In this document: positions 1 through 37,515 of the stretch, one piece after another
How positions within the stretch are numbered: the first letter of the stretch is position 1
Layout: the number at the start of each line of letters is the position of its first letter
Source: a virus
Reading direction: 5' to 3' (one strand)
Virus record (IMG/VR): IMGVR_UViG_3300030116_003389
Location: 1 to 37,515 of that record
Length of the DNA stretch: 37,515 nt
Position numbers and translations under genes: made by a program
The notes under the pieces: generated by a model
Database searches by the model: none
The model's input: only the letters and a program-made list of their open reading frames with translations
Told to the model about the DNA's origin: nothing

Positions 1-1032
1 TAAACTCATTAAAGTTTCTTTAGCATTATTTAAAGATTTTTGAAATTGAAAACTTGCTGATTGTTCAGTTATACGAAACGCTTCAGCAGTTGAACCAGCA
101 CTATCTGCAAGTGCATCAAATATTTTTTTAGATTCTTCCATTCCAGCGCCAGTTAAATCTAACACCCCTTTTAGCGCTCTAATATTTGGAAATATATCAG
201 TAATGTTAACACCAAATTCTGTTGTCTTGTTTTTAAGCATTTCAAGTGTTGCCATTAGCCCTTCTTCAGCTAAACTTTGTTGAACTCCTTGTGTGCTTAA
301 TCCCATACTTGCAAATGCCTGTTCAGCTTCGTTTGTTGGTTTTTTTAATGATGCTAGTATTTGTGTTAATTGTGTGGCTCCAACCGCCGCATTTGTACCT
401 GTACGTGACATTGATGCCATAGCGGCGCCTACTTGGTCAAACGACACTCCCATATTAGATGCAAGTGGAATCACAGCACCCATTGCTCCTGCAAGTTCAC
501 CAGCTTCTAATTTACCCTCACGTACTGAGGCAGTCAACACATCAGTTGCATGTTCAGCGCTCAATACGTCTTGTCCGTAGGCGTTCATAGCCGATGTGGT
601 TAAATCAGCAATAGTTTTAGTTTCTCCTAGTCCACTAGCGGCGGCTTTTGATGCAAATTCTAATGTATGAAGTGCTTTTGAAGTGTCTTTAATACCGGCA
701 GATGTTATAAAAAACAATGCATCAGCGGCTTCACGTGAAGAAATACCGACATCACGTGCCATGTTTTTTGCACCTTCGCCTAATTTTTGGACGTCTTTAG
801 AAGCAACACCAACTAACGCTTGTATTTTAGTTAATGATTTGTCAAAGTCCAATGCCATTTTAACACTAGCACCACCAGCCAATGCAAGTGGCAATGCAAA
901 TTTTTGCATTGAACCACCTATTGATTTTAATTTGCCACCAAATTTTTGAAGTTTACTTGATGCAGTATTTAATGCGCCAGTAAATCCTGAAGTGTTTGCA
1001 GTTAAATTTAATTGTAACCTTTGTTGAGCCAT
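1..1032 (-). CDS. Tail tape measure protein, N-terminal part (runs off left edge)
   Basis: This is the first 344 codons of the tape measure protein, which sets tail length and is threaded through the tail tube. The ATG at 1030-1032 begins MAQQRLQLNLTANTSGF. The following region, with RDVGISSREAADALFFITSAG and later GTNAAVGATQLTQILASL, looks like the TP901-type tape measure core. The frame is open to base 1. The 3' part enters at 37515 in the same frame, so the full protein would be about 833-835 aa. The gene follows the tail assembly chaperone genes, the standard place for a tape measure gene. The plus-strand open frames here are shadows. Confidence 0.88.
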   Translation of the reverse strand, partial: MAQQRLQLNLTANTSGFTGALNTASSKLQKFGGKLKSIGGSMQKFALPLALAGGASVKMALDFDKSLTKIQALVGVASKDVQKLGEGAKNMARDVGISSREAADALFFITSAGIKDTSKALHTLEFASKAAASGLGETKTIADLTTSAMNAYGQDVLSAEHATDVLTASVREGKLEAGELAGAMGAVIPLASNMGVSFDQVGAAMASMSRTGTNAAVGATQLTQILASLKKPTNEAEQAFASMGLSTQGVQQSLAEEGLMATLEMLKNKTTEFGVNITDIFPNIRALKGVLDLTGAGMEESKKIFDALADSAGSTAEAFRITEQSASFQFQKSLNNAKETLMSL

Positions 1033-17688: not shown

Positions 17689-17919
17689 TTAAAAGCAACT
17701 ATTAATCATCATAATAAAAGCAAATACAAGCAATAATACAAGCGCTATATTCAGCGATTTTGTAATGTGTTGCTTGACCTCACGTTGTTCACGTTCTAGC
17801 TTTAAATGATGGTCTAAATGTCTTATGCAATCTAATTGTTCTGCTTTAGTACAATATCTGTACTTTTCGCCATAATGTTTTTTGGCGATATTGTCTAGTA
17901 ATATTTCTATTTCTGCCAT
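17689..17919 (-). CDS. Small tail-anchored membrane protein
   Basis: This 76-aa protein has a charged, His-rich N-terminal part (EQLDCIRHLDHHLKLEREQR) and a C-terminal transmembrane segment (IALVLLLVFAFIMMINSCF). It belongs to the group of small genes after the major capsid gene. Codons for EKYRYCTK include a 20-base stretch (17849-17868) identical to part of the structured RNA at 18670-18689. The function is unknown. Confidence 0.6.
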   Translation of the reverse strand: MAEIEILLDNIAKKHYGEKYRYCTKAEQLDCIRHLDHHLKLEREQREVKQHITKSLNIALVLLLVFAFIMMINSCF

Positions 17920-18604: not shown

Positions 18605-18857
18605 AAAGAAAACCTTACGAACCTAGAGTTGATTACTCCTTTAAGCTAACCGTTGGCTCGTTCTTTAGCGTACAATATCTGTACTTTTCTCAACTTCAAT
18701 AAGCCAGTCCGTAAGGAATCTTATTCAGGTGGATTGCAAAGGTGGAGTAAACTCTATCTTGTACCCTTTGCTTAGTAAATGTCCCCATTTACGCCTGTTA
18801 GCAGTAACGTTGCGCATTTCCGTTACTATTTATTTTAATATTTTATTTTCAATGAAC
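18605..18857 (-). ncRNA. Candidate structured non-coding RNA behind the capsid gene
   Basis: This gene-free stretch is GC-richer than its surroundings and, on the minus strand, folds strongly. Paired arms (plus coordinates): 18821-18826/18804-18809 (6 bp); 18786-18792/18775-18781 (7 bp, GGGA tetraloop); 18765-18771/18736-18742 (7 bp); 18710-18716/18613-18619 (7 bp) closing a domain with 18690-18695/18627-18632 (6 bp), 18680-18684/18670-18674 (5 bp) and 18665-18669/18645-18649 (5 bp, adjacent and stackable). GGCU(U) at 18701-18705 can pair with the GAGCC loop at 18655-18659 (pseudoknot). A promoter is placed just upstream and UUUUCUUU follows the last stem. No known family (RNase P, tmRNA, group I intron) was recognised. 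It could be a free RNA or a leader for the small genes. Confidence 0.65.
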
Positions 18858-18863
18858 TTACAA

Positions 18864-18894
18864 CAAAAGTAAAAAAATATTTTCAATTACCAAA
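18864..18894 (-). promoter_or_regulatory. Bacteroidetes-type promoter for the structured RNA
   Basis: On the minus strand TTTG (18891-18894) is followed after exactly 19 bases by TACTTTTG (18864-18871), matching TTTG-N19-TAnnTTTG. The predicted start is near 18857. It directly follows the capsid terminator. Confidence 0.75.
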
Positions 18895-18944: not shown

Positions 18945-18974
18945 CAAAAAAAAAGGCGCAATAAAGCGCCTTTT
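18945..18974 (-). terminator. Strong intrinsic terminator after the major capsid gene
   Basis: On the minus strand AAAAGGCGC pairs with GCGCCTTTT around a 6-base loop, followed by a T tract of about ten. It closes the terminase-to-capsid transcript. Confidence 0.88.
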
Positions 18975-18993
18975 CTATATAGATAAACTATGA

Positions 18994-20199
18994 TTATGAT
19001 GCTGTCATAGATGTTATCGCAGAACTAAATGTACCATTAATGATACCATTTGGTAGATAAGTTGCAAGTGCAACTCTTTCAACTGCTCTAACAGTTACGA
19101 AACCATCTCTAACATTTGTTCCATCTTGGCTAAAGAACTCAATAGATACATTATCCCTAACCCAAACTTGACATGAATTAGCGAAATCACCTACTAGGAA
19201 TTTCCCAGCAGTCATATTCACATTCTGTACAACAGGTACACCCATAAAACTAGGAGAAAGACCTTGATAAACTTGGTCTTTAATATAGTTATTAGTAGTG
19301 TCTTTTGTTAACAAGATTTTGTGAAAATCAGTTGGATTTAAAAGAATATAATTTGGTCTATAATTGTTTAATGCCATCTGGTTAATAGCGGCAACTAATA
19401 CGTCAAACTCATTTGGCGCAGTTACAGCTTGGTAAAATTTACCATTACTACTTTCATCAAAGTCACTAGATGAATTTAATAAACCTTTTAGATTTGGTGC
19501 AACACCAGAACCACCTAATAATTGGTCATCTTCAACTTCCATTAATTTAGCTGGCACTCTATTAGATATATAACTAGTAAGTTGAGGCGTATCCGCTAAC
19601 ATTTCTTCAGAAATTCTTAAATAAGTACCGATTTTCTCAATATTAACACTAGTCGCTGTCATATCGAAATCAGTTTGCCCAAATGTAGCGCCTTCAGCTG
19701 TTGCTCCAGCACCATTTGAATAACCAGATTCCTCGACATATCTAACAACATCAGAAGTAGTTGAACCTACTGGTAACATTTGTCTAATGTTTTGTGGTCT
19801 ATTTGGGTCATGGTAATAACCAGGAACTCTTTGTGCTGGAATTACTTCGCCAGTAAAATCACTTGCAACCGTCATATCAGCTTTCACTTCAAAACTAGCG
19901 GCACGTGAATTACCTTTTCTTAATGAATCAATAGCACCATCTTTGATTGCTTTGATTAAACCACTTTTAAATGACTTACTTTCTCTTTGAGTATTTAACG
20001 ATTCAAAAGATTTCTTATTAGAAACTTCCATTTCGTCCATTCTCTCATTGAATTTTTGAGTAAGATTGTTGATTTCACCTTTTAAAGTTTCTTCAATCTT
20101 CCCATCGGCACGTGTCTGCACCTGTTCACTAGCTTTCTCAATTTTTTCGTCAATTATATTGCCTAATTGGTCAAGCTGTTTTTTTACATTTTCTTCCAT
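18994..20199 (-). CDS. Major capsid protein, HK97 fold
   Basis: This 401-aa protein has an N-terminal coiled-coil scaffold domain (residues about 1-100, Lys/Glu-rich), followed by the phage_capsid family part: VASDFTGEVIPAQRVPGYY, MLPVGSTTSDVVRYVEESGY, KIGTYLRISEEMLADTPQLT, NYILLNPTDFHKILLTKDTT, FMGVPVVQNVNMTAGKFLVG and VTVRAVERVALATYLPNGII. The scaffold part is expected to be removed by the protease encoded just upstream. It lies in the standard portal-protease-capsid order and is followed by a strong terminator. Confidence 0.93.
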   Translation of the reverse strand: MEENVKKQLDQLGNIIDEKIEKASEQVQTRADGKIEETLKGEINNLTQKFNERMDEMEVSNKKSFESLNTQRESKSFKSGLIKAIKDGAIDSLRKGNSRAASFEVKADMTVASDFTGEVIPAQRVPGYYHDPNRPQNIRQMLPVGSTTSDVVRYVEESGYSNGAGATAEGATFGQTDFDMTATSVNIEKIGTYLRISEEMLADTPQLTSYISNRVPAKLMEVEDDQLLGGSGVAPNLKGLLNSSSDFDESSNGKFYQAVTAPNEFDVLVAAINQMALNNYRPNYILLNPTDFHKILLTKDTTNNYIKDQVYQGLSPSFMGVPVVQNVNMTAGKFLVGDFANSCQVWVRDNVSIEFFSQDGTNVRDGFVTVRAVERVALATYLPNGIINGTFSSAITSMTAS

Positions 20200-36039: not shown

Positions 36040-37515
36040 CTACAATATTCTATCTCTAGTAGAATTAGCCCTTTCTAATGCTACTACTAAATCTTGTCCA
36101 CGTAATTCAAAAGAACCGCCTACATTAACTTGTTGTGTTCTATTATTAGTTCCAATAAGTCCCTTTAATCTATCTAATGGAGCAACAACCTCTGGGTTAC
36201 TTCTGGCACCAGGATATTCGCCCATAAGTCCCATTGTAGGCGCACTAATTATTCCGCCTTTTGCAAACTTTTTAGTTTTTTTCATTGCAGAAGATACTGC
36301 TCCGACAGCCATTGCTATAAGTGCTGGTAGTACAAAAGCCGCTAAGGGTCCGAAAGATTTTGCACTTTGTCCAGCGCCTTCTACTGCATGACCAATAGAT
36401 GCTCCGCCTGAAGCAGATATTTTAGAAGCCGCATTTGCTCCTAAAACAGCAGTTAAAGCTGAATCTGATGCCATTTGCATAGCATCAGTAGTTGTTTTAT
36501 TTGTCGCTTTTTGTTTATCAGCAATCATCATTTGTAATTGTCCAGCTAAATATTCAGTAACCATATTCATAAAGTTGCTTAAAAACTCACCTAGAGCAGT
36601 ACCAGCAACGCCCATAGTTTCAACTATTGAATTGCCTAAATGACTAAAACTAGCTTGTAATGATTGTGCTGTGCTGTCAGCTGTCCATCCTAATTTTTCT
36701 AATAAAGTAATTTTTTCTTCTATTGCTTTATTATCATCGCCACCTGTAGGCAATACTGTATCAGAACCAATTAAAGTGTCATTTCCAGCACTAGTGTCAC
36801 CACTAGTAGATGTAGTTGAAGTACCTCCACCACCACCAGAAAATAAACTATTCACATTGTCTTTTATGTAGTTTCCAACATTATCTAAACTGTTTTGTAC
36901 TTGTTCAACTGTTTTATGCTCTAGTGAATTACTTAATGCATTTGTATAACTATCAGTAAAATCTTTTGCTATTTTTTTACCAGCATCAGATGCAATAGTT
37001 TGTGCATTATCAAATCCTTCTTCTAATATATCGCCAAAACTACCTTTAAAACCCTTTTCTGAAAATTCTTTTATTAAATTCCACATTGTAGCCCACGCAT
37101 TTACAAATTGGTCAACATATGATTTTATTTTTGTAAATACACCTCTAAATACTGAACCAATTCCAGCAATAGCTACTCTAATAAATTTTGATGAATTATA
37201 TAAATCAACAAATCTATTATATAAGCCAACAACAACTGGTAAAACTTCGCCCCAATTTTTATAAATTACATAAGCAATAGCAGAAAGTCCAGCAACCACC
37301 AATCCAATAGGCGATAATAATGCACCCAATAAACTAACCAATGAACCCACTAATGTTATTATAGTTGGCAATGCAATAGCAACGCCACCTAATGCTAAAA
37401 TTAGCTTTTGCATTGTAGGGTCTAGTTCTGTAAATCTTTTATATAAATTTTGTATAAACCCAACTAATTTTTGAACAGCTGGAACAACAGCAACCATTAA
37501 TTGTTGCCCTAAACT
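36040..37515 (-). CDS. Tail tape measure protein, C-terminal part (enters at right edge)
   Basis: The frame is open to the right edge and reads SLGQQLMVAVVPAVQKLVGF, typical of the tape measure region after the core domain. It has hydrophobic stretches (LILALGGVAIALPTIITLVG, PIGLVVAGLSAIAYVIYKNW; near the end FGPLAAFVLPALIAMAVGAV) and the end region AKGGIISAPTMGLMGEYPGA, EVVAPLDRLKGLI, typical of tape measure C-termini. It continues in frame from base 1, with TAAACT at both edges. The stop TAG (36040-36042) is 2 bases from the next ATG. Confidence 0.88.
   Translation of the reverse strand, partial: SLGQQLMVAVVPAVQKLVGFIQNLYKRFTELDPTMQKLILALGGVAIALPTIITLVGSLVSLLGALLSPIGLVVAGLSAIAYVIYKNWGEVLPVVVGLYNRFVDLYNSSKFIRVAIAGIGSVFRGVFTKIKSYVDQFVNAWATMWNLIKEFSEKGFKGSFGDILEEGFDNAQTIASDAGKKIAKDFTDSYTNALSNSLEHKTVEQVQNSLDNVGNYIKDNVNSLFSGGGGGTSTTSTSGDTSAGNDTLIGSDTVLPTGGDDNKAIEEKITLLEKLGWTADSTAQSLQASFSHLGNSIVETMGVAGTALGEFLSNFMNMVTEYLAGQLQMMIADKQKATNKTTTDAMQMASDSALTAVLGANAASKISASGGASIGHAVEGAGQSAKSFGPLAAFVLPALIAMAVGAVSSAMKKTKKFAKGGIISAPTMGLMGEYPGARSNPEVVAPLDRLKGLIGTNNRTQQVNVGGSFELRGQDLVVALERANSTRDRIL

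Follow-up and report, generated by a model that had tools for sequence, protein, structure and literature searches.

A stretch without a recognizable protein gene on the minus strand of a tailed-phage record, which we call R, almost certainly represents a conserved family of structured RNAs. An alignment of five distinct sequences shows that its proposed fold is kept by compensatory changes. It is this covariation among homologues, and not the stability of the fold, that lifts R above chance. Our best overall explanation, which we consider likely, is that R is a conserved structured noncoding RNA of Bacteroidota phages that is made as its own late transcript and acts in trans.

The element and its setting

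The window analyzed here is the whole 37,515-nt stretch, positions 1 to 37,515 of IMG/VR virus record IMGVR_UViG_3300030116_003389. It is a tailed-phage record that carries genes for portal, large terminase, head protease, HK97-type capsid, and head-tail connector proteins. The tape measure gene is apparently split over both ends of the window (1-1032 and 36040-37515), and the record is therefore probably a circularly permuted, near-complete genome. Its promoters appear to be of the Bacteroidota type, from which we infer a Bacteroidota host. When bacterial genome contigs were searched with the capsid protein, a single contig was found, L085 (PBPJ01000031.1; L numbers are our own handles for loci and contigs), whose capsid is 85% identical; it sits in a Woesearchaeota MAG bin and is probably a misbinned phage contig.

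R lies between the capsid gene and the small genes that lead to the connector genes. An earlier note on this DNA had described an ORF-free, GC-enriched stretch preceded by a terminator and a TTTG-N19 promoter, and all of these are there: no ORF exceeds 47 aa on either strand, GC is 0.41 in the element and 0.31 in the window, and both signals lie ahead of R. The features of the locus are as follows.

18949-18976, minus strand: intrinsic terminator of 11 pairs after the major capsid gene (18994-20199, minus strand), from a terminator scan
18864-18894, minus strand: predicted Bacteroidota-type promoter TTTG-N19-TACTTTTG, with TTTG at 18894-18891 and TACTTTTG at 18871-18864 (direct reading, spacer counted)
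18843-18860, minus strand: boxA-like leader TAAGTTCATTGAAAATAA, with its boxA-like core GTTCATTGAAA at 18857-18847; found in noncoding RNA units, not in 54 coding slots
18605-18834, minus strand: R, conserved structured RNA domain, whole model match (leave-one-out covariance model R2, 88.7 bits, E 1.4e-18, a rough value; R1, 132.6 bits)
18802-18828, minus strand: P1 hairpin (18828-18822 / 18808-18802); 4 of 7 pairs changed on both sides, all cells paired
18726-18797, minus strand: P2, CAGG/CCUG (18797-18794 / 18729-18726), which closes P3; invariant in 5 sequences
18775-18792, minus strand: P3 hairpin GUAAAUG-GGGA-CAUUUAC with a GNRA-type tetraloop; sequence-invariant in 5 members
18736-18771, minus strand: P4, GCAAAGG/CCUUUGC, in the window copy only; 38 nt that the four homologues lack
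18606-18722, minus strand: P5, long-range helix (18722-18719/18609-18606 and 18716-18706/18623-18613) that closes a three-way junction; 5 of 15 pairs changed on both sides, all cells paired
18644-18705, minus strand: P6 (18705-18702 / 18647-18644), with a compensatory U-A to G-C change and an apical 46-nt insertion in the window only
18670-18689, no strand assigned: 20-nt exact direct repeat, a segment of the P6 insertion identical to 17849-17868 in a downstream small gene (17689-17919, minus strand)
18626-18638, minus strand: P7 hairpin GAGU-AAUCA-ACUC; compensatory G-C to A-U in L133
18605-18612, minus strand: U-rich 3' end UUUUCUUU, read from the sequence; homologues have U7-U8

The promoter motif before R has the form TTTG-N19-TAnnTTTG, and the window's promoter also stands before an ORF in L004, a relative with a 98% identical capsid. 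Read from its 5' end, R consists of P1, CUAA, P2 enclosing P3, and P5 closing the three-way junction with P6 and P7, with the U-tract directly 3' of P5. The 14 stem letters of P3 are constant in all five sequences, the loop of P7 is AAUCA, and P5 is a continuous helix of 17 bp in the four homologues. P4 and the P6 extension are peripheral insertions specific to the window copy. The stems proposed in the earlier note are present, including the GGGA hairpin (18792-18775). Its possible pseudoknot (18701-18705 with 18655-18659) finds no support: this pairing is nested in the family structure, where the homologous partner strand is 18647-18644 in P6, with a U-A to G-C change.

The gene copy of the 20-nt repeat, ~0.8 kb downstream in the window, is also found in L004, which is without R. 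Thus, the P6 extension probably acquired this segment from the gene, whose copy looks older. GTACA-N5-TGTAC showed no enrichment as a repeated operator. An attC-like or intergenic-repeat origin (GCTAAC...GTTAGC) was dropped because the bases concerned sit in other family helices or in single strands.

Homologues and covariation

R is present in four further IMG/VR contig types, namely L133, L154/L160, L156, and L163. They were sought by scanning IMG/VR for the 5' leader (pattern TAAGTTCATTGAAAWWAA) and then for the conserved core (final pattern CTAACAGGCNNNNNNGGGGAC), and the core scan added L154/L160, L156, and L163. In L133, three blocks behind the leader are identical to the window (CTAACAGGCGTAAATGGGGACATTTAC, ATCCACCTGAATAAGA, and AGTAATCAACT) and the intervening sequence is different. 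The element had no similarity match among 50,697 phage or 72,556 plasmid records, and similarity searches with the L133 RNA or the core gave nothing beyond chance. Two exact 16-mer scans of IMG/VR returned chance matches only, a longer core pattern proved too strict, and the leader of L043 as a scan pattern matched L043 only.

In an unbiased helix search of the window against L133, the top ranks went to P5, with double changes in 5 of its 11 pairs, and to P1, with double changes in 4 of 7. We then consider alignment A2, which was made with MAFFT on sequence only from the five distinct sequences (the window, L133, L154/L160, L156, and L163). All 41 proposed pairs form in each of them (205 of 205 cells), and structures slid along the same alignment as a control are 35-48% paired. 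Double changes occur in 11 pairs, distributed across P1, P5, P6, and P7, a result reached in 0 of 500 shuffles, and the covariation score is 0.339 against 0.174; three of the five sequences are close to each other, and some of these changes may go back to a common ancestor and not have arisen separately. One of the controls argues against such shared inheritance, as do P1 in L156 and P5 in both L133 and the window, which are strongly divergent. P2 and P3 never vary and hence give no covariation signal. Furthermore, a covariance model from which the window had been left out matches it at 88.7 bits (E 1.4e-18, from a short calibration that makes E-values rough). The earlier note had looked to an alignment of related phages for covarying pairs, which were found in these four helices, and had named relatives lacking the paired positions or keeping an intact frame as evidence against an RNA; the relatives keep every pair, and indels break the frame between members.

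These indels also bear on whether the conserved core (NRRKWGHLHIHLNKKPYKWSRG) is the remnant of a small peptide gene that has decayed in the window. In L154 (47 aa with ATG), L163, and L133, the core can be read in this frame without a stop, and the product looks protein-like. Against this, indels of 1, 4, 38, and 46 nt interrupt the frame between members, and the copies in the window and L156 contain stops or lack a common start. Third codon positions in the core are identical in all five sequences, which is not how a coding sequence is conserved, and the helices change in ways that preserve their pairs. Given the indels, the absence of synonymous change, and the lack of a Pfam or PHROG match, we reject the coding reading as very improbable.

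Fold stability alone is weak evidence for R. The z of the window copy lies between -2.0 and -2.4 (p of ~0.02-0.03), a similar score is obtained for the plus strand, and the fold ranks 15 of 173 minus-strand windows in the same phage, with 14 better. A z of only about -2, together with the complete absence of R from its 98% relative L004, is what might be expected of a GC-richer foreign fragment that landed in a variable slot and folds by chance. However, the minimum-energy fold of each homologue is the consensus (z -3.5, -4.6, -4.7, and -5.0; 0 of 200 shuffles), and these strong folds, the covariation, the leave-one-out match, and the recurrence of R in the same slot leave such generic filler hardly credible.

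The transcription unit and its boxA-like leader

R forms the 3' end of noncoding units of ~0.25 to 0.8 kb whose 5' parts differ. In L163 (L172), ~0.8 kb extends from the promoter and GTTCATTAACA to R and T8 with no ATG ORF longer than 27 aa; the units of L154 and L156 are ~0.5 kb and share one 5' domain unlike that of L163. Structured-looking long 5' domains are seen at L172:2670-3327, upstream of R in L154 and L156, at L133:8854-9070, and at L043:3954-4023. The start of one of them, TAAGGAAAATTGCT..., is common to L154, L156, and L043, and L133 and L163 share another that has a covarying GGAGUUGCAAAUCC/GGGGUUGCAAACCC hairpin. The 5' domains of L154, L156, and L163 have no Rfam match at E<=1.

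By direct reading, L154, L156, and L163 have TTTG-N19-TATATTAG or a similar promoter-like sequence after the U-tract and ahead of the next gene, so R appears to close its own transcript in these phages. In the window, the U-tract is weaker than those of the homologues and no promoter was seen between R and the next gene, which makes read-through into the downstream small genes likely there; L133 likewise shows no such promoter, and its transcript may read through as well. The separate transcript proposed by the earlier note thus stands as far as the dedicated promoter, the boxA-like leader, and the U7-8 tract followed by promoter-like sequence (L163, L154, and L156) are concerned, and is less clear at the 3' end of the window copy.

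This 3' end is also where R could be taken for a 5' leader that controls the small-gene operon in the manner of an attenuator or riboswitch, P5 and the U-tract being the terminator that decides on read-through. P5 and the U-tract do resemble a terminator, and the U-tract is followed after ~15-40 nt by the next ORF in both the window and L133, with no second promoter seen in between. However, the promoter-like sequence before the next gene in L154, L156, and L163 would have the RNA end earlier, the downstream genes vary among phages, R closes a long noncoding unit in these three contigs, and no alternative anti-terminator pairing was seen by eye. We consider a cis-acting leader quite unlikely, and it is very likely that R is its own transcript.

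Three kinds of noncoding unit share GTTC[A/T]TT[G/A]A[A/C]A downstream of the promoter, and such a boxA-like leader occurs in 0 of 54 coding slots. The IMG/VR scan with the leader pattern returned mostly unrelated coding sequence, and its matches of noncoding type adjoin RNAs or candidate RNAs: RNase P RNA and then tRNA-Met in L137, a tRNA array in L144, the L031-type RNA described below, a structured stretch in L150, and L133. A near-identical leader stands before the L137 RNase P RNA and the L144 tRNA array. The former (L137:12720-13005, minus strand), directly behind the leader, is a class A RNase P RNA with 53 bits (E 1e-15), under the Rfam gathering score. On the minus strand of L150, a 180-kb phage contig, the leader TAAGTTCATTGAAATAAA is followed by a candidate RNA closed by AAACUCUUA/UAAGAGUUU, the whole covering ~100 nt from the motif onward. 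In L146 and L148, the leader motif comes after a tRNA and before an ORF.

The rRNA boxA of Bacteroidota probably looks much like this leader. The gamma-proteobacterial boxA consensus is GYTCTTTAANA (PMC5725501), and boxA is the NusB/S10 site of rRNA antitermination. The likeness to the rRNA boxA leader and its Nus-factor antitermination (PMC5725501, PMC4807359) lies in a short GTTCATTGAAA-type motif right after the promoter of untranslated RNAs. GTTCATTGAAA departs from this gamma-proteobacterial consensus at two positions, and its role as a boxA is proposed by resemblance. By this analogy, we lean towards boxA-type antitermination of the R transcript.

The capsid-connector slot and the role of R

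We surveyed 80 IMG/VR loci found by their capsid protein, which gave 58 distinct readable slots. The order of capsid gene, terminator, and promoter is largely kept across the 80 loci, and one variable cargo follows. A small ORF opens 54 of the 58 slots. The exceptions are L003 (the window's own virus, with an identical element), slots with a tRNA-like RNA (L031, L036, and others), and L043, in which a second promoter leads to another non-ORF stretch. A 75-aa ORF occupies exactly the place of R in L004. R follows the capsid gene in L154, L156, and L163/L172, whose capsids are 70-72% identical; L133 carries R though no capsid relative was found in its contig. From these sequences, the slot is hypervariable: most of its versions hold a protein gene, and a few hold structured RNAs that are unrelated to each other.

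The tRNA-like RNA is found at L036:6290-6640 and L031:2150-2500, and also in L027, L038, L061, L131, L140, and L145. It has an AAGGTGG/CCACCTT acceptor, a TAGGG-GTGAATG-CCCTA arm with GAA in the anticodon position, a GGCGG-TGCAAGT-CCGCC T-arm, and no D-arm. Next to it come the hairpins GGTAG/CTGCC and GGTTG/CAACC, which are related and whose loops are nearly the same. Neither ARAGORN nor Rfam matched it. The window also encodes a PD-(D/E)XK endonuclease-like protein (PF11645; 17239-17637, minus strand), and a similar protein is encoded a few genes past the slot in L004, L154, L156, and L163.

The company that R keeps in this slot bears on what it does. If the slot is shared with accessory anti-host genes, R could be a late, abundant decoy that ties up a nuclease or RNA-binding protein of the host, which would be a special case of a trans-acting RNA. 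The hypervariable slot, with one cargo per phage and a tRNA-like RNA among the cargoes, fits such a decoy; R resembles no known defense target, however, and its sequence points to no partner, and we regard an anti-defense function as rather unlikely.

Rfam covariance models found no match in the window at the gathering threshold. As the earlier note had supposed, R belongs to no known family that it named: neither Rfam nor ARAGORN matched RNase P RNA, tmRNA, 6S RNA, or a group I intron in the element. The tailed phage phi29 likewise encodes a small structured RNA, its pRNA, from which R differs in having no Rfam match. GOLLD had no Rfam match in the R region at E<=10 or in L154, L156, and L163 at E<=1, and ROOL had no covariance-model match in the window, the R region, or these three contigs. 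GOLLD RNAs are phage-encoded, have a conserved 3' and a less conserved 5' region, and are raised during lysis, and many exceed 800 nt (PMC12286853). R is likewise phage-encoded and structured, with a conserved 3' region and a less conserved 5' region when L163, L154, and L156 are compared with the window. In contrast, the conserved domain of R is only ~145 nt and lies behind the capsid gene, whereas GOLLD, a homo-oligomeric RNA cage, lies near a tRNA island. ROOL (PMC12286853), too, is a structured RNA that phages encode and for which no protein partner is known, but R is much smaller and, again, sits behind the capsid gene and not near a tRNA island. R may work like GOLLD, yet it is not a member, since the GOLLD covariance models fail on it. 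A GOLLD- or ROOL-like role is a tentative analogy.

We favor the explanation in which R is a trans-acting late RNA. A sigma-ABfr-type promoter would start the R transcript at ~18856, and the boxA-like 5' leader would load antitermination of the NusB/S10 type and so protect the untranslated transcript from Rho, as happens with rRNA. P5 and the U-tract would form the 3' end. Judging from its position, the RNA would accumulate late in infection and would act in trans through its fold and not as a message, with an architecture that, by analogy, comes closest to GOLLD and ROOL. The window phage would carry a short form that lacks the 5' domains, and its downstream small genes may also be expressed in part by leaky read-through. 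More speculatively, phages could have a new class of large, modular RNAs that are led by a boxA and occupy a slot used elsewhere by protein genes. R would be the conserved 3' domain of these RNAs, which would act as RNA alone (as GOLLD/ROOL-like assemblies or host-takeover RNAs) and whose 5' domains would be swapped between phages.

To the large phage RNAs such as GOLLD and ROOL, R adds a family whose structure is supported by covariation and whose size of only ~145 nt suits it to chemical probing, structural studies, and reporter assays. The search rule of a promoter followed by a GTTCATTGAAA-type leader picked out RNase P RNA, tRNAs, and further candidate RNAs in phage contigs. Additionally, comparison of its sequences shows one and the same phage slot taken by a protein gene in some phages and by structured RNAs of unrelated kinds in others.
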